A program made the translations under genes and the position numbers. 31,579 nt of DNA from Heterotrichella gracilis (Eukaryota; Sar; Xanthophyceae; Tribonematales; Xanthonemataceae), in assembly GCA_032358255.1 (NCBI GenBank), contig JAULBX010028116.1, positions 1 through 31,579 of the forward strand, read 5' to 3'. The notes under the pieces are model-generated. The model saw only the letters and a program-made list of their open reading frames with translations. It did not search any database and was not told where the DNA came from. This document shows positions 20,801-31,300 of the stretch, in pieces (the stretch's first letter is position 1; each line of letters begins with the position of its first letter).

Positions 20801-23800
20801 CTGGTCATTGCCAATGGTCCAAGTAAGGCCAATATTCTCTGTGTTGGAGTAAGCTGTCGATCTATCAGTATGAAAAGAAAAACATCTACAAAATGACCTT
20901 GTTGTGGGTAAGGGAATCCAATAATGGGAGCTATTCACACAGCATTTCCCTTCCCTCCTGCGCAGGGAGAAGCGGCTCCCCTCCCCCTGGCGCGACCGGC
21001 CTGTTGAGGAGAGCCTGAAGCTGTTTGAGGATATGCGCAGGGGGCTGGTGGACGAGGGGGAGGCGACGCTCAGGTAGTGGAGGGAGGGGCCCGGGGGGGG
21101 GAATGGATGGCAAGCAGGGGGGCTGATGGCATCTGCTTGGGGATGGTGTGTGGAGGCAACACAATGTCTCCTGATCAATGATGTCAATGCTGCTGAACTC
21201 TACCCACCCATCTACACCCCTCCAGCAACCTTCCTGCCCCCGCACACCCCTACTCCCCTCCCATCCCCTCCACTGCACCCCCCCAGGATGCCCATGGAGA
21301 ACCCTAAACCCTAAACCTCCCTCCATCCCCAGGATTCGCATGGACCCACAAGAAACCCTAAACCCTAACCCTAACCCTCCACCCCAGGATGCGCATGGAC
21401 CACAAGAACGACAACTTCAACATGTTTGACCTCATCGCCTACCGCATCAAGTTTGTGGAGCACCCGCACGCCGGCGCGCGCTGGTGCATCTACCCCTCCT
21501 ACGACTTCACGCACTGCCTCACAGACAGCATGGAGAACATCACGCACTCGCTGTGCACCCTGGAGTTTGAGTCGCGGCGGGCTAGCTACTACTGGCTGCT
21601 GGAGGTTTGTAGGGTTTTGGGTGGGGTTTGTTGGGGTCGCACGAACCAGTTGCTGGAGGAGGTGGTCACTTTTCTGGTTCTGGGGCTTTGGGTTGGCCCC
21701 CCCAAGTGCTAGTCAAGCACATACCGTGGGTGGCATGTCATTCCAATGTACCCTCCACCTCCCCACCCCACCCCATTTTTCCGCACCCACCACAGGTCCT
21801 TGACATGTACAAGCCTGTGGTTCGAGAGTACCCCCCTGCCATGCAAAGTTTTCCCCACCTCCACGCCCACCACCCACCTGCACCATCCACCCCCACCCCC
21901 ACCCCACCCACTGCAGGTCCTGGACGTGTACAAGCCTGTGGTGTGGGAGTACTCGCGCCTCAACGTGACCCACAATGTGCTGTCAAAGCGCAAGCTCAAC
22001 AGGCTGGTGACGGGCGGGTGGGTGGATGGGTGGGACGACCCGCGCCTGCTCACCCTGGCGGGCCTGAGGAGGAGGGGGGTGCGAGCGGAGGTGGGTGGTG
22101 GGGAGTGGGGGTTGTGGGGGGTGCGCGCTGTGGTGGGTGGTGGGTGGTCGGATCGGAGGTGGAAACAGGGTGTCTTTGCTTGGGCACATAGGATGATCCA
22201 GGACACCAGCGTTACAGAACTCCAGGACACCAGCATTACCACCTGCTCCGCAGGCCATCAGCCAGTTGTGTAGGACATTGCATGATCCTAAACCCTAAAC
22301 CCTACCCCTAAATCCTAACCCTAACCCCGCAGGCCATCAACTCCTTTGTCCAGGACATCGGCATCACCCGCTCCGACAACAGCGAGGTGCCCCTGCACAG
22401 GCTGGAGGCGCACATACGCAGCGACCTGGACGCGACCTCCCCTCGCGCACTGGCTGTGCTGCGCCCCCTGCGGGTAGTGATTCTCAACCTGCCTGAGGAC
22501 CACTTTGAGGAGGTGCAGGCGCAGGTGAGGGGAATATGTGCCGGGGTGTGCAGAGAGAGGTGTTTGTTGGCTGCCAGCGTTTGCTAGGGTTTTGCTGGGG
22601 GTTTGCTAGGGTTTTGGCAGCAATGTCTGCCAGCTGTTGCCCCTTACTGGCAGGCGCCTGTGTTTTAAAAATGCATCCCAATTACAAGCGCTCCCCACCC
22701 TTCCTACCTGGCCACCTACCAAAGCCAACACCCAGCGCCTGCCCAAACCCTCCCCTCCCACCCACCCCCACATGCTACCTCCTTTACCCTCACCCAAAAC
22801 CCTAACCAAACCCTACCCCCACCCGCAGGTGTTCCCCGGCCGCTCCCCTGCCACCTACCCCCTCCCCTTCACCCGCACATGCTACATCGAGTCGACAGAT
22901 TTTAAGGCGCAGGATGAGCGGGGATACTACGGGCTTGCGCCCGGCAAGTCAGTCATGCTGCGCTACGCATACCCCGTCACCTACGTGCGCCACGATGTGG
23001 ATGCGGATGGGAGCGTGACCGCGGTGTACGTGGAGTATGCCAAGGAGGTGGAGAAGCTGCCAAAGGTGGGTGGTGGGGAGGGTATTGTTGCTGTATCACC
23101 TCCACTCACCTTCTGTACCACCTAAACCCACCACAGGCAAAACCCCAGGGCAGGGTTTGAAAAACTACAGCCATTTTATGGAGGGGGCGACAACCAGCCC
23201 GCATGCTAGGGTTTGGGCAAGGGTTGTAGTCGTACCATGAAGGGGGCGAGCCACGCCCTCCCTCAACAGGGTTGCGCCCCTGCCCCTGCCCCTCATCCAC
23301 AACCCAAACAACCCAACCGCCATACCATCTACCGCTATACCAACCCAAACAACCCAATCTCCATCCCCATTCTCCCCCACCGCGCCCTCACACCCCTCCC
23401 TTTCCCTCCCCAGGGCGTACTCAACTGGCTGGGCCAGCCCTCCCCTGGCACCCCAGGGCACCTGGGCCACCCCACCAGTGTTAAATCCCTTGTTAGGGTA
23501 CTTTCACTCTCACACCCACCTCCCCCCTTGTCCTCGCCCCCCCCCTCTTCCTTCTCCACACCCACCTCCCCCTCCCGCAGGGTGTGCTCAACTGGCTGGG
23601 CCAGCCCTCCCCCGGCACCCCACCCCCCACCTTCCAGGCGCGACTGTACGACACCCTGTTCACCGCACCCAGCCCCGGGGATCTGGATGACTGGCTGGAC
23701 CACCTCAACCCAGGGTCCATGCAGAAGGTGGAGGGGTGCATGGCCAGCCCCGTGCTGGCGCAGGCGGCTGTGGGGGACAGGTGGGGGGTGGGGATGTGTG

Positions 23801-24502
23801 GGGGCGGAATCCTGAAGGCATTTGATGCCTTGTGTACAACCATATGTGTGTGGGCGTCTGTTAAAACATGGCCACGCGCGATGTTTGTTGCATATCTTTT
23901 GGCATTTGCATTCGCATGCAATGGGCGGAGGGGTGCATGGCCAGCCCGGTGCTGGCGCAGGTGGCTGTGGGGGACAGGTAGGGGTGAAAGTCTCAAAGAC
24001 GTTTTGATGAGTTGCGTACTCCCATGGGGCAGTTTGCATGCGCATGTCTTTGAAAATGCGCAAGCGCGTGGTGTGTAACAGTGCACACTGTAAATGTTGT
24101 CCTGGCACCACCTATACCCTACCAACGTGTGGAAATCCTACAAGGGTATCCACCCTATCATGAGACACCCTACACACCCTGCCTCTCCCCTTTGCTAGGA
24201 TGCCTCCTCTCATGCCACACGCTGCGCCCTACTAGCGCTGTGCTCTGACTGTGTAGCTTCCCCCCTGCAGGTTCCAGCTGCAGCGCCTAGGACACCCTGC
24301 TAGGGTCCATCATACCTTGACGCACCCTAAACCCTAAACACCTTTTTCGCTGACTGTATACTCTCCCCTCGCCTCCTGCAGGTTCCAGCTGGAGCGGCTA
24401 GGCTACTTCTGCGTTGATTCCGACACCACCCCTGGCTCGCTGGTCCTCAACCGTACATGCACGCTCAGGGAGAGCGCGGAGAAGAAGGCGGTGGGGAGGT
24501 GA
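17871..24502 (+). CDS. GlnRS: Glutaminyl-tRNA synthetase, cytosolic eukaryotic type
   Basis: Sixteen exons, all GT-AG with closing phases: 17871-17932, 18013-18130, 18278-18343, 18443-18544, 18714-18787, 19065-19227, 19485-19781, 20099-20245, 20550-20662, 20966-21073, 21388-21604, 21917-22090, 22333-22524, 22829-23065, 23581-23780 and 24382-24502 (stop TGA). This gives 796 aa. The enzyme charges tRNA-Gln with glutamine using ATP. Residues 1-195 form the eukaryote-specific N-terminal domain ([21 protein letters not shown]), followed by a Lys/Pro/Ala linker. The class I core starts at [16 protein letters not shown] (HIGH motif, about 279-294). The KMSKS counterpart is VLSKRK (510-515). The anticodon-binding beta-barrels end in [14 protein letters not shown] and [10 protein letters not shown]. 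An in-frame ATG at 17838 would add 11 residues, but the start at 17871 matches the usual N-terminus. Eight exons have decayed edge copies in adjacent introns. Confidence 0.97.
18973..19006 (+). repeat. Decayed copy of the head of GlnRS exon 6
   Basis: It repeats the first about 34 nt of exon 6 (TACGGC, then CACCAACAAGCTGCTGGCCG). It is followed by AAAACCCCAGTAAAACCC and telomere-like AACCCT runs that lead into the true acceptor CCAAAACCCTAG. Confidence 0.85.
20000..20037 (+). repeat. Perfect 38-nt copy of the head of GlnRS exon 8 with its own acceptor and possible donor
   Basis: Bases 20000-20037 equal 20099-20136, both preceded by a CAG acceptor. The copy is followed by GTATTT, so it could act as a mini-exon; inclusion would shift the frame (38 nt). 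Full identity suggests a recent event. Confidence 0.92.
20286..20335 (+). repeat. Decayed copy of the 3' end of GlnRS exon 8 with donor
   Basis: It matches the end of exon 8 and its donor at 20209-20253: GAGACATTGTG, GTGGGCTGGAAG and AAAGGTGCGTGGG correspond to GAGGACATTGTGGGC, GGGGTGGAAG and GAAGGTGGGTGGG. Confidence 0.7.
20401..20558 (+). repeat. GATC/TGATCA-dense tract before GlnRS exon 9
   Basis: About nine GATC sites occur in roughly 150 bp, many as TGATCA or CAGATC, ending at the acceptor TGATCACTGCAG. The spacing is irregular, so this is not a simple tandem repeat. A similar run (TGTGATCAGA, repeated) occurs at 30112-30150. Confidence 0.8.
21287..21354 (+). repeat. Two decayed copies of the head of GlnRS exon 11, each followed by CCCTAAA repeats
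   Basis: Copies start after AG at 21287 (GATGCCCATGGAGA) and 21333 (GATTCGCATGGACCCACAAG). The true exon starts at 21388 (GATGCGCATGGACCACAAGA). Each copy runs straight into CCCTAAACCC, and the last repeat array feeds the used acceptor CTCCACCCCAG. Confidence 0.93.
21796..21838 (+). repeat. Decayed copy of the head of GlnRS exon 12
   Basis: After ACAG it repeats GTCCTTGACATGTACAAGCC and TGTGGTTCGAGAGTAC, against the true exon head at 21917. The frame stays open over the copy, so use of this acceptor would insert extra residues unless it is spliced out. Confidence 0.9.
22196..22288 (+). repeat. Three partial copies of the head of GlnRS exon 13, ending in a CCCTAAA array
   Basis: 22196-22216 and 22221-22250 repeat the exon segment TCCAGGACATCGGCATCACC in altered form. 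22254-22288, after CCGCAG, repeats the exon from its first base (GCCATCA) through AGGACAT. A CCCTAAACCC array then runs directly to the used acceptor CCCTAACCCCGCAG at 22332. Confidence 0.85.
23414..23454 (+). repeat. Copy of the head of GlnRS exon 15 with acceptor
   Basis: It is nearly identical to 23581-23621 (ACTCAACTGGCTGGGCCAGC) and is preceded by CTCCCCAG as the true exon is by CTCCCGCAG. Length is 41 nt with about three differences. Confidence 0.93.
23927..23977 (+). repeat. Copy of the 3' end of GlnRS exon 15 with donor
   Basis: It matches the last 51 nt of exon 15 (23730-23780; TGCATGGCCAGCCC, TGCTGGCGCAGG and GCTGTGGGGGACAG) and is followed by GTAGGG, a usable donor. Exon 15 is therefore flanked by a copied head upstream and a copied tail downstream. 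Confidence 0.93.
24271..24291 (+). repeat. Copy of the head of GlnRS exon 16 with acceptor
   Basis: After CCCTGCAG it repeats GTTCCAGCTG(C)AGCG(C)CTAGG as at 24382. About 35 nt later CCCTAAACCCTAAA occurs, then the true acceptor. Confidence 0.9.
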
Positions 24503-25382: not shown

Positions 25383-28300
25383 ATGGGCAGGTCTGCCAAG
25401 AAGAAAACAGGAGCACTGCTTGCAGCTTCGGCTAAAGCTGCTGCGCAGGTACCGTGTCGTTCGCTGTCTAAGTGTCGAGCAGCGTCCTTCTTGTTTCGCG
25501 GGTGTGCGCAATACCACGCATATATGTGGAGCGTGGCAGATATGCATGCCAACAAGGAGATGCATGCATGTGTGCATGCATTTATTGGGGTGCTAGCCTT
25601 TCACCACGAGCTAGCATATTATTATCTCCCTGGCGTCGCTGCCTGCCCGCAGCACACACAGTTCCCACCTCGCTGTTTTACTGGTTGCTGGCTGTTTTGC
25701 AACTTGCTTGGTGAACATGGGGTATGGTATAGTGTAGTACCCCACAGCTATTTAGGCTAGTATGTATGGTATAGTGTAGTACCCCACAGCTATATAAGCT
25801 AGTGTAGTATACCCCACAGCTATATAAGCTAGTGTAGTATACCCCACAGCTATGCAGTGTAACCCAGCCACAGCTGAACCCGTGCTTGTTCAAATGCGCG
25901 CAGGCCACAGACACCTCCTGGTATGCCAAGAAGAATGCTTCGGGCGAGCTGTTTGGTGTCATGGGGCCCAACAAGGCTCCCGCCAACCTGGATCAGCTCA
26001 TGGGCGTGTCCTATGGCGACTTGATGGACGGGCTGGACGAGGTGTCAGTCAGCATGGCCACACGTGCGTGTGCGACAGGAACCCTAAACTCTAAACCCTA
26101 AACATGTGGGCTAGACGAGGTATCAAATCAGCATGGCCACATGTGTGCGACAGCCTAAACCTCAAACCCTAACCCTAGCCGTTGGCCTGCCTATGCAGTA
26201 CCATGTGCAAGGAGGCGGCAAAGCCCAAACCCTCACCCCAAACGCAAACCCTAATCAGCAGCCTGTCCCATGTACGGTTGCGAGGGAGGTGCAGAGGCTT
26301 GTGAATTGCACATCCGCGGCGGAAAACCATGATGATAAACCTGTGCACATATTGTAACCTCACTACCACAGCCAGCCGTTGCCCACCCCAACAAGGGTGC
26401 TCAGTCAGGGAGCAGCAATCTTTTTATGTGAGAGACGTGTTCAAAATCCCTTGCCTGTCCTGCTGCGTGGCCTGCTGCTGGGTTCCTGGGGCGGAAACCT
26501 CCGGCCTGAGCTGTTGCGTTACCCTAAACCCTGTTACCCTAAACCCTGGTGCATGTGGCCACCGCTGGCAAGGAAACCCTCGAGCTGTGTGCTGACAAAG
26601 TACGTATACCCTATTGTAGGTCAACGGGACTGTCTTTGGCCACTAAATAAATTAATGGAATGAAACCAGGTCGTGTGGTGCCGCAGGTGTTGAATACCCT
26701 CCTGGGCCTGCTGGACTGCGGCAAGGTGAGGGTTGGCTTGATGATGCAATGCATTATCCACTAAATAGTGGTCATGTATTAATTGTAGGACGACATGGTA
26801 AACAATATCTACAATTTGTGCATTTCATAGGTATGCATTAACGTTTGTCGCCACGACCCCTTAGTTGGCTGCAGCACCGCTCGTCTGACGCCTTACCTCC
26901 CTTTGCCAGCGCTTCCGGAATTTGGAGCACCTGCCGGGGAGGGGGTTTCCCGGGACAGAGATGTCGAAACAGCGCGAGTGAGCCTGGAGGGGGCGCAAGT
27001 GCTGAGCTACCTCCAGCGCCAGCTGGCAGCCGGAGGCAGCATGAAGACGTGGGTATGCCCCAGCTGCGCCTTTGTCCAGCACTTCCCATCCCCCACTGCC
27101 CTGCTGCTCCACCTGCAGCAGGACCATTACCCTAAGCTAGGGACCCTGTTTGAGCTGGTGGTGGGGCAGGAGGCAGAGGTGGCTGCGGGGGATAAGGAGG
27201 TCCGCGCGATTGTGGGAGCCGCCATCAAGGACATGAAGGGCGCATGGTGCGTGCGGGGGACTAGGGTTTAGGATCTGGGGACCCTGTTTGAGCTGGTGGT
27301 GGGGCAGGAACTGGGCAAGGGCAAGGAGATTCGCGGCATTGTGGGAGGCGCCATCAAGGACATGAAGGGTGCATGATGCGTGCAGGGGGTTAGGGTTTAG
27401 GGTTTAGGCTGCATTGTGCGTGCAGCCCATGAAGGGCATGGATGGTGCAAGGTGCATGCAGGGGGCATTCCTTGACCTTTGCACACAGTCTCTGCATTTC
27501 CCTGCTGGCGGTCATTAATTGTTGTTTACCCTTCGATTGGAGCGGGGCCCAGCAGCCATGTGCCCCCAGTTTGGTGGCGCAGGGCCAGGTAAAGTGATCC
27601 AAGGTGCATGGGATGACAAGTGCCAGCCATGGGGATTCGCAGGTGAAGTGCACAGGTGAAGTGCACAGGAAATGTTCAGGGTTTTGGGTTCACGAGTATT
27701 TACCAATGTACAGCACTGGTGAACAGGTGAACTGTGAACAGGGAACAAAAAAAATCACAGCTGTCAGTCAACCCTGCCATTGCGTAACCCTAAACCCTAA
27801 ATCTAACTTTGAACCCTCCCATGCACTGCAGGCACCAGGGTCGAGGCCTCGAAGATCCTGTGTGGGGTGCCAACACCCTAAACCCTAAATCCTACACCCT
27901 AAATCCTAAATCCTAAACCCTAAACCTAAACTATCCCATACGCTGCAGGCACCAGGGTAAAGGCCTTGAGGATCTTGTGTGGGGTGCCAACGCCTTCTTG
28001 TGGGACCAACTGGACATTGAGTTGGAGAAAGAGGAGCGCCACGCATCCCCGGAGGTCCAGTCCCTGAAGGATACCTACCTGGTGCATGTGTTTGCTGTGG
28101 CAATCAAGACCATCCTGACGCACCCCGCAGTGTGAGTGGAGGGGGGTGAGCCACGTATGGGTAGGGTTAGGCTTGTGTTGCTGCGTATGGTTGGCTAGCA
28201 GCATAGGTGCTAGGCGTGAACCGTAATTCAAAACATTATGAAGGGGTGGGGCTAGGGGTGAACCTCACGAGGGTCCACACAGCACAGTTTGTTAAACAGT

Positions 28301-31300
28301 GGGCTATACATTCCACATATGGCACAGTATACCCACGCATGAATGCAATGAGGGTATGTGTGGTACTCTCTGGCCACACGTAATAAATCCATTCTTATAT
28401 ATCCACCAGCTACGCTGGCATACCTGCCCCCGCCTTTGCACCACCAACCCCTGTGGGCAGGCTGCCAAACCCTATATCTAAACCTGAAACCCTAAACCTT
28501 ATGAATCCCTTTGTGCAGGTACCAGGCGTCTGTCCAGCCCCTCCTGCACAGCGCCGCCAAGACCCTGCTAGGCATCCCGCAGCATAAACACCTGCCCGAG
28601 GAGCATGCACAGCAGGTGCTTTGGACCATCTACCAGCGGGCAGACGTCCACCACATGCGCGTGCTGAGCAGCAGGATGCACGAGGTGGTTCTGGCAATGG
28701 GGCTGAACCTCACAAAGCCCTGCGCCAACGGGAAGCTGTGCCATCATTCAGAAAACGTGTGTGGGCATGCAGGGTGCGCCAGCAGTGCCGACCACCTGCT
28801 GCGTTGGATGCTATTGCGCATAGCACGCCTGCGAAAAGCCCGAACACTGTGGAGGTGCAGGGGTGTGCTGGTGCAGGGTTGGGTGCCAATGCTAGGGTCC
28901 CTACCCTGCACCAGCAAAACCCTACACCCCCGCAACAAACTGACTCGGCCCCCCCACACACACCCACCCCCCATCCACCCCCCCATCACTCGCCACAGCT
29001 CATCACAAGCCCTGTCCTGCACATATCCTGCATATGTCCTGCGCATGTCCTGCATTTGCCCAGGGATTCCTCCCGACACAGGTACTCCAGACCTGCCCAT
29101 GCCAGTGGCCCTCAGTACCATATGTGGGCTGGAGTTTAGGGTTTAGGGTTAAGGGTTTAGGGTTGCTTGGCAAATGCGCTGTGCCGCTGCATGCAGGTCG
29201 TTGTAGAGAGCCGCGACATCTTGGCACAGGGGCCAGTGGCGGAGGGTGGGCTGGCGCCAGCCCTGTCCCAGTCCCGTGGCGGAGGCGCTGGGGGGGCATC
29301 TGGGGGAGATGCCGAGGGGATGCGTGGCGGAGATGGTGAGGGGGCAACTGGGGCAGGTGATGGGGGCGCATTTGGTGGAAATCCGAGGGCGCATTCAGCA
29401 CTGCAGGGGCACATGGTGCGGGTGCTGAGGGCATCTCTGGTGGAAATGCTGAGGGCACATTTGGCACTGCAGGAGCACACAGTGTGGGTGCCGAGGGCGC
29501 ATTTGGTGAATTTATTGAGCGCACATGTAGCACTGCAGGGGCACATGGTGCAGGGTGCTGAGGGCGCATTTGGTACTGAATGGCCACATTGCGCAGGTGC
29601 TCAGCTTGGCCTGTTCTTGAGCGAGGAATGGCTGGCCAGCATCCCAAAGGTGGAGCTGATGCTGCATTATGAGAGGGAGGGAGAGGACCCTGATCCCATG
29701 AGAGGCACGAGGGCCATCGACCTGGCGTCTGCGCTGTACAGGCTGCTGTACGAGCCGCACCTGGTGAGATTGGAAAGCGTGCAGGCTGCTGTAAAAAAAA
29801 TAGAAACGCCTGCGATTATACGGTGCACAGGCACATTTCACATGGGTTGTGTGCACAAGTAGCTTTTACCTCCTGCCCCAGGGTGCGCCCCACTTATGTC
29901 GCCTACCCCACACATGCCTTTGCTTTCCCGGCCATCGCACACCTGCATGTATGTATGTATGTATGTATTTACGCAGGTACAGGTATATCTACGCTGACTC
30001 ACAGGTACATGACTTACGTAATTTATGTAAATATGCACACAGATGAGCCACCATCAGCACAAACCTGTCACATGGGTTTGAGTGTGTGTGTGTGTGCAGC
30101 TTGACTGCGGATTGATCAGATGTGATCAGATGTGATCAGATGTGATCGTGTGTTGTTGTGTGTGCAATTTCAGGGCGGATCATATGCAACCCGGGGCCCC
30201 ATATCCGGGGTTGACCTGGGCCACCTGTGCGCAACGCAGGCACAGCGCGACACCTGGCAGCCAGGTGAACCCCGAAACCCTAAGTGCTAACCACTCAACC
30301 CCCACCAGCTGCCTAGACCTGGGCCACCTGTGCGCAACTCAAGCACAGCGCGACACATGGCAGCCAGGTGAAACCCTAAAGCCTAAACACAAAACACTGC
30401 CCACTCAACCCCCACCAGCGGCCTCGACCTGGGCCACCTGTGCGCAAGTCAAGCACAGCGCGACACATGGCAGCCAGCTGAAACCACCTCCCCTTCCATC
30501 TTCATCATCACCATTTGCATTCCAGTCGCAGATCACAACGTACATTCCAGCGCCATCATCACATACGCCTGTGCGTACCTGAGCCCAGTCTCTCCCCGGC
30601 ATAGCCGTACCATGCTGCCTGTCACATGCACACATGACAGCATGTACACATCACCAGGGGTATACTAATAATACTAACATAATAATACTAATAATACTAA
30701 CGAGTTAGTATAGTTAGTATACCCCTGACATCACCAGCATGACACCCGGAGCATGTGCGTACCTCATATGCACCCTACTGGGTGTGCCTGTGCAGCGCTT
30801 CCAAGCCCGGTCTCTCCAGTTCCCAAACCCTATACCCTATACCCTAAACCCTAAACCTGATGAGTGTGTCTTCCTGTGCGGCGCTTCCAAGCCCGTCCCT
30901 CCAGTTCCCAAACCCTATACCCTAAACCCTAAACCCTAAACCTAATGAGTGTATGTGCCTGTGCAGCGCTTCCAAGCCCGTCCCTCCAGTTCCCAAACCC
31001 TTTACCCTTTACCCTAAACCTGATGAGTGTGTGTGCCTGTGCAGCACTTCTGAGCCCAACCTCACCTGACCTGGTCATGTCTGTGCTGCGCGACGTGCTG
31101 CGGCAGATGAAGGAGGTGCGGGCGAAGTACAGCAAAGCCAAGTGGGTGCTGGGGGAAATGATGCGCGCAGCCGTGGAACCTAGGTAAGGGTCTTAAATGG
31201 GGCGGGCGGCCATGGACCCTGAACCTATGGCTTAAACCCTGAACTTATGTTGTCCTTTGTCTCTGAAATTCAATACAGTGAGAGCTCCACGTGTTTCCTC

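Follow-up and report, generated by a model that had tools for sequence, protein, structure and literature searches.

The window (the whole 31,579-nt stretch of DNA that was analyzed) carries a short array in front of an exon at positions 30783–31045 and, upstream of it, a gene for glutaminyl-tRNA synthetase (GlnRS); the units, exons and duplicated blocks of the window described below lie on the + strand. The array consists of three 85-bp units, followed by the true acceptor and its exon. Each unit reads, in order, a TGTGCCTGTGCAG-type acceptor, an exon-head-like stretch, a CCCTAAA-type array and a short GT-rich spacer. Unit 1 (30783–30868; borders are approximate for all three units) has the decoy acceptor TGTGCAG at 30789, an exon-head copy and a telomeric array at 30825–30857. 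Unit 2 (30869–30953) has a decayed acceptor, TGTGCGG at 30875, with its exon-head copy and a telomeric array at 30910–30942, and unit 3 (30954–31031) has the decoy acceptor TGTGCAG at 30960, the exon-head copy and a telomeric array at 30995–31020. The true acceptor, TGTGCAG at 31038, leads into an exon (31045–31183) that by eye reads LLSPTSPDLVMSVLRDVLRQMKEVRAKYSKAKWVLGEMMRAAVEP and then gtaagg; the corresponding exon of a paralogue on contig C490 is much alike by eye. The original prediction had described four units, each with an acceptor, an exon head and a telomeric array. Three of them are indeed built in this way, while the supposed fourth consists of the true acceptor and its exon, without a telomeric array after it. 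The loss of the AG from one copy, which had also been predicted, was found in unit 2, so that one of the four acceptors lacks it. Tandem Repeats Finder assigned the array a period of 85, 2.8 copies and 91% matches, the head-to-tail arrangement and constant period of a minisatellite. The copies within the array differ from one another, which argues against duplication during assembly. A Pfam search returned no family for the array gene's own exon or for the 146-aa open reading frame upstream. Repeated TACTAA/TACTAAC-like motifs, which look like branch points, occur just upstream of the array (30640–30730), and a run of 77 G residues closes the contig (31503–31579), probably a sequencing or assembly end effect.

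The decoy heads matched the head of the true exon at 10 of 13 positions in each decoy and at 15–17 of 28 positions in register. Among 400 other acceptor-like sites of the window, 2 reached the value of the best decoy over 13 nt, none over 20 nt and 1 over 28 nt. Free local alignment of 40 nt of decoy against the exon gave a score of 6.0, which is not above background (null mean 5.4, 95% point 8.0). Because the 13-, 20- and 28-nt matches are rare but the 40-nt alignment is at background, we consider approximately 13–28 nt of exon-head copy to be supported, rather than the roughly 35 nt per unit that had been predicted. The three decoys carry the same three differences from the exon within their first 13 nt and therefore represent one amplified family, derived from one copying event and subsequent tandem amplification. 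On the basis of these shared changes, we rejected three separate copying events for the array and, with them, the predicted origin of each unit as a copy in its own right.

A sequence search with the array returned the paralogue on C490 as well as matches over the telomeric stretches of the array (12 candidates scored). At the corresponding exon, the paralogue has an array of this kind, too. It contains three decoys whose head copies are unequal in length: one of ~60 nt, which clearly matches the exon in an alignment, and two of ~30 and 28 nt, as judged by eye. These unequal lengths suggest that copying at this exon boundary probably happened more than once. The gene that carries the array also contains, at 30211–30500, three copies of an exon tail with the donor CAG|gtgaaacc (assigned by eye). 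The first and second copies run into telomere-like sequence, with the tract of the second starting in register on the native AAACC, and the third copy continues as normal intron. At the paralogous site on C490, the block is present as a single copy without a telomeric tract and continues like the third copy. Among 40 of 139 candidates scored, we saw no empty paralogous site for 14 other clean loci.

Copies of exon edges are also frequent in the GlnRS gene, where five of the seven introns contain a copy of the neighboring exon edge. Two decoys, each made up of an acceptor and exon-head copy followed by a telomeric array, precede the true exon that starts at 21388 (21278–21408). Single acceptor and exon-head copies followed by a telomeric array are present at 22248–22358 (array 22287–22304, true exon from 22333) and at 24245–24403 (array 24324–24339, true acceptor and exon from 24381), and copies of the same kind without telomeric repeats precede the true exons at 21752–21952 (exon from 21917) and 23389–23622. 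On the donor side, an exon tail with its donor (23718–23984) is followed by a second copy 127 nt further on (70 nt, 90%). When the joined GlnRS exons were compared with solved glutaminyl-tRNA synthetases, no insertion was found at three exon joints. Affected introns lie at two of these joints, namely those at 21.6–21.9 and 22.1–22.3 kb. The absence of inserted residues at these two joints indicates that the copies are skipped and that the introns have been lengthened rather than multiplied.

We then considered a sample of 12 genes with 49 introns, made up of GlnRS, whose exons were set by eye, and 11 chaperonin-family gene regions found by profile, whose exons were taken from the Pfam profile and have approximate edges (53 of 58 matches were used, and C180, C189 and C263 were left out). 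Within 500 nt, these genes contain 25 direct repeats and no inverted ones, although the 25 pairs are not independent, as 7 are in C902, 4 in C487 and 6 in GlnRS. A coding copy was paired with a non-coding copy in 21 of the 25 nearby direct repeats, compared to 10.4 in random shifts, while no pair had two coding copies (4.1 in random shifts) and four pairs had none (10.5 in random shifts). A telomeric array lay between the copies in six pairs and was absent from between them in the other 19, so the telomeric cassettes appear to be a subset of a broader habit of junction duplication. By hand count, ~14–16 of the 49 introns are affected, and the copies in the 12 genes differ by 2% to 28%. The 24,193 non-coding nt of these genes contain 15 telomeric arrays, whereas none overlaps the 13,992 coding nt by >5 nt. 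One of the regions left out, G000:C180:5368–6876, has its chaperonin match inside a single open frame of 546 codons, which may be of organellar or bacterial origin.

Coding constraint on the copies would place far more of the differences at third codon positions. In 19 pairs of exon and copy, the differences were distributed over codon positions 1, 2 and 3 as 26, 30 and 43, which is near the expectation for a neutral copy compared with a selected exon (~46% at position 3 by our own estimate). Judged from these differences, the exon-edge decoys look dead. Decoys under coding constraint had been suggested by mostly third-position changes at locus L058 and in C418, a candidate explanation that we rejected on the pooled count. 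Locus L058 itself (C20:86250–87450) has a telomeric array flanked on either side by a 60-nt exon-like stretch with a donor; the differences that we noted by eye between the two are silent, so both copies might be used.

The genome is available as a draft assembly of 68.5 Mb in 903 contigs. Seven contigs start in CCCTAAA/TTTAGGG arrays (C70, C140, C526, C609, C717, C770 and C824) and three end in them (C173, C607 and C660), from which we conclude that the unit of the intronic tracts is the alga's own telomere repeat. Exact (CCCTAAA)2 occurs 5629 times in the genome, compared to 5 occurrences of the reversed pattern, and exact (CCCTAAA)3 occurs 834 times, compared to none, with overlapping matches and chromosome ends included. 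The window contains 28 telomeric arrays, whereas 20 Markov shuffles contained a mean of 0.0.

Of 68 sampled telomeric arrays, one was dropped, and local alignment showed 30 of the remaining 67 to be flanked by direct repeats. The corresponding values were 26 of 4422 for mispaired flanks and 1 of 11 for (AC)n arrays, after one of 12 had been dropped; the telomeric arrays were sampled in contig order rather than randomly, and the (AC)n control is small. At random positions in the window and in 13 further loci, of which some had been chosen for their match to the array, direct repeats were found in 559 of 8400 cases. In a second sample, in which long arrays predominated, 5 of 21 were above threshold, and L126, L128 and L129 also look clean by eye. 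We then pooled all 28 arrays found in the window, among them the units of the array at 30783–31045, with 88 loci, to a total of 116. L105 (at a contig end and without a central array) and L096 (without a central array) had been dropped from the first comparison, and a 40-nt flank filter removed none of the 116 by our own count. Ungapped repeats abutted the telomeric array on both sides in 27 of the 116, compared to 0 of 7656 mispaired null pairs; with gaps allowed, a count that has no null of its own, there were 33 of 116. Duplications of 13–90 nt were found, with L052, L054, L062, L072, L076, L077 and L120 as examples. Within the window, a direct repeat of ~65 nt with a TGCAG acceptor-like site (27810–27991) encloses the telomeric array at 27875–27926. 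Shuffles, the reversed pattern, random positions and mispaired-flank nulls together led us to reject a chance origin of the arrays and the flank pattern. The order of flank copy, telomeric repeat and flank copy thus recurs across the genome, which makes a single mechanism likely, as had been predicted from the constant order within the array, and the wider pattern that had been noticed throughout the window holds as well.

Some individual loci showed further arrangements. Multi-unit tandem arrays of flank plus telomeric repeat, like the array in the window, are present at L013 (C76) and L016 (C31). At L054 (C16), positions 250–700, one exon appears by eye to have decoys on both sides, namely copies of the acceptor side upstream of it and a copy of the donor side attached through a telomeric repeat that is G-rich on the sense strand.

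The joints between copies and tracts were more often in register than expected. The left joint was in register, meaning that the base after the right copy equals the start of the tract, in 29 of 33 cases, compared to a shuffle mean of 16.3 and a largest value of 25 in 5000 shuffles. At the right joint, where the base before the left copy is compared with the end of the tract, 25 of 33 were in register (shuffle mean 12.4, largest of 5000, 22). Random genomic context at the joints gave ~8 in register (largest 18 on the left and 17 on the right). Since the outer flank may itself be telomeric, which would make a match trivial, joints of at least 6 were set aside, and 23 of 27 left and 18 of 26 right joints were still in register (hand count).

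A strict splice-like motif on either strand was present in 22 of 27 right-hand duplicated blocks, whereas random intervals drawn from these loci would lead one to expect 12.9; the list of motifs was chosen after some loci had been inspected. Copies on the donor side (by eye at L058, L059, L061, L081 and L113) and on the acceptor side both occur. We at first took the clean loci L052, L062 and L076 to lack splice junctions, and withdrew this view on finding splice-like motifs, at the motif level, in all three. The excess of copies at splice junctions that had been proposed as a check is therefore present both in the 12 genes (21 of 25 pairs) and in the duplicated blocks.

We think it probable, with room for doubt, that telomeric repeats were captured at an intron-exon boundary when a staggered break was repaired, or in an equivalent template switch, and that the array at 30783–31045 is the relic of this event after tandem amplification. 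In the first step, a short CCCTAAA tract would come to lie between two copies of the 13–90 bp around the insertion point, with both joints in register, the pattern that is seen at many loci. It would arise most naturally from a break with overlapping ends, if telomerase or copying of a telomere end added repeats at one end and microhomology joined the other. Near exons, such events would survive if the duplicated block carried a splice site, as one working junction would remain; the intron would grow by one block and one telomeric tract, and the other copy would become a dead decoy. In the last step, which the structure of the present array demonstrates, the unit of decoy and telomeric repeat would have multiplied as an 85-bp minisatellite whose copies decay. 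Selection would filter the outcomes. An event within an exon would destroy the protein, and one that spans a boundary would leave one working junction; within introns, events would be free, with both copies decaying. The survival of boundary duplications is compatible with the codon-position and placement tests, and much of the excess at exon edges could arise without any targeting if this filter acted and if pairs in which one member is conserved decayed more slowly. We count the direct-repeat flanks (30 of 67), the abutment on both sides (27 of 116, compared to 0 of 7656), the in-register joints (29 and 25 of 33) and the single-copy site in the paralogue in favor of break-repair capture, and likewise, from the 12 genes, the 25 direct and no inverted repeats, the 21 coding/non-coding pairs, the near-neutral codon-position counts and the lack of telomeric arrays in coding sequence. 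Several observations count against it. For 14 clean loci, no empty paralogous site was seen among the 40 of 139 candidates scored. Only 5 of the 21 arrays in the second sample were above threshold, and the genome is rich in tandem repeats, as the 559 of 8400 random positions show. Plain tandem duplication also happens, as in the 19 of 25 pairs without an array, and may be part of the pattern. The outer flank is itself telomeric at several loci (L067, L070 and L072), which fits unequal exchange too. Finally, the enrichment of splice-like motifs (22 of 27, compared to 12.9) is greater than an indifferent process without selection would give.

Ordinary minisatellite growth by slippage or unequal exchange, with the telomeric tracts as pre-existing intron sequence and exchange between them setting the unit borders, is in our view an unlikely explanation, albeit one with some weight. 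The 85-bp array is itself a tandem repeat, junction duplications with no telomeric array between the copies are common, and telomeric sequence lies beside the outer sides of the copies at L067, L070 and L072. Exchange of this kind is harder to reconcile with six loci (L052, L053, L062, L076, L120 and L134) that by eye have one tract and none adjoining the outer sides; in a permissive 60-nt scan of four of these six, a short telomere-like stretch was found on one side at L053 and L062 and none at L052 and L076. If the tract had no influence on where blocks end, abutment on both sides at the observed frequency would not be expected, and at the C490 site of the 30211–30500 block both the tract and the additional copies are absent. 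Errors of assembly, in which reads were collapsed or falsely repeated, might be suspected in a draft of 903 contigs and a window that ends in a poly-G run, but copies that differ by 2% to 28% and a pattern that recurs at dozens of loci leave this explanation with hardly any probability.

Splice junctions might instead be targeted as such, copied and joined to telomeric repeats, with RNA or R-loop intermediates or splicing-tied breaks as conceivable routes; the exon-overlapping copies (21 of 25, compared to 10.4 by random placement) and the motifs in the duplicated blocks speak for such a mechanism. It is because of the motif enrichment that we rate targeting higher, and capture lower, than at first. 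Donors and acceptors are both copied with intron attached, however, so there is no signature of spliced RNA; moreover, purging of exon-internal events together with slower decay predicts ~15 of 25 by our own rough estimate, and intron-only pairs exist (4 of 25). We therefore regard targeting as improbable. A mechanism that copies the neighborhood of splice sites had been part of the original prediction. An excess at junctions is present, but that the mechanism itself seeks splice sites is not supported, as selection and slower decay would push in the same direction. Functional decoys, serving as alternative splice sites, mini-exons or regulatory decoys under selection, are in our estimation very improbable. 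Several decoy acceptors and donors look intact and the differences noted by eye at L058 are silent, but the differences by codon position fit neutral decay, one decoy acceptor in the array has no AG and GlnRS aligns to a solved structure across two affected joints and one unaffected joint with no inserted residues. A strand bias might also be read in favor of function, since near TGCAGG sites the C-rich strand is approximately twice as frequent as the G-rich strand on the acceptor (sense) side (377 compared to 197, overlapping matches included); in the 12 genes, C-rich and G-rich tracts number 10 and 5. The sequence TTTAG|GG resembles an acceptor, and G-rich tracts may be selected against near acceptors for this mimicry.

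Introner elements are genome-wide insertions that shape introns, in the form of dispersed near-identical copies carrying splice sites. As with introners, insertion events throughout the genome shape introns here; unlike introners, the splice sites were copied locally, and the only insert that we saw to be shared is the telomeric repeat. No dispersed near-identical insert with its own splice sites was found in the search with the array, the one query used, among the 12 candidates scored. The array at 30.8–31.0 kb is a minisatellite like others, but one that was founded by a junction copy joined to a telomeric tract. Internal gene duplications have reportedly been treated by Gao and Lynch (2009).

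In mammals, according to the portions consulted of two studies (PMC2246262, PMC7215372), short interstitial telomeric sequences are inserted in the course of double-strand-break repair, and 67–80% of the insertions have at least one base in register, which is taken as a sign of telomerase (PMC2246262). Target duplication, judged against empty sites, was reported there at 4.6% of loci in rodents, 16% in primates and 4.5% in the horse, and of the human interstitial telomeric sequences none was in exons and 31% were in introns (PMC2246262, PMC7215372). The arrays described here resemble these insertions in having a telomere tract of a few units inside the genome, in-register bases and some target duplication, which in mammals is ascribed to staggered breaks. 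They differ in that 33 of 116 arrays have a duplication, judged by flank similarity and often tens of bp long, in that an exon edge is often part of the duplicated block and in that the units can multiply afterwards. In a potato RdRp gene, as described in the portion consulted of PMC4974935, a tandem duplication crossing an intron-exon boundary brought a branch site, pyrimidine tract and acceptor and led to the gain of a new intron, in a single case. The duplicated block likewise crosses the intron-exon boundary here (21 of 25 pairs), but existing introns appear to have been lengthened by dead copies, some with a telomeric tract between. Both components are thus already known from the portions consulted of these sources, telomeric insertion with target duplication as a minor class in mammals (4.5–16% of loci) and boundary-crossing duplication from single genes. 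In the parts of the open-access literature that we consulted, including PMC6410037, we found no interstitial telomeric repeats tied to splice sites or introns in algae, nor any work joining telomeric insertion with boundary-crossing duplication.

What we see in this alga looks like a DNA-repair outcome that is already known and that lengthens introns, here in an unusually active form. Intron gain or growth by break repair or boundary duplication has been argued from few traceable cases (PMC4974935, portion consulted). If the sampled fractions hold genome-wide, which is an extrapolation, there would be hundreds of events here whose insert is tagged by the telomeric repeat, and the insertion point, the target duplication and the fate of the splice site could then be read together. 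The pattern also bears on the effect of intronic telomeric repeats on splicing, posed as a question in the portion consulted of the horse study (PMC7215372). We tentatively propose, as a possibility that we hold with less than even confidence, that telomeric break repair with long target duplication is a leading engine of intron growth and splice-junction turnover in this alga and is possibly drawn to junctions. A large share of introns would then carry one or more ghost exon edges, the working splice site would be moved to a fresh copy by such events and intron borders would be renewed by DNA repair; some exon-internal events may found new introns.

Two minor observations concern the sequences sampled. 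A ~50-nt palindromic element lies to the right of the telomeric array at L126 (C346), with some two dozen dispersed copies among the matches listed. The CCT-beta protein is similar to green-algal ones and was closest, among named algae, to those of Coccomyxa elongata (80%), Micractinium (79%) and Chlorella vulgaris (77%), and the top row was a Vicia faba entry at 78%.
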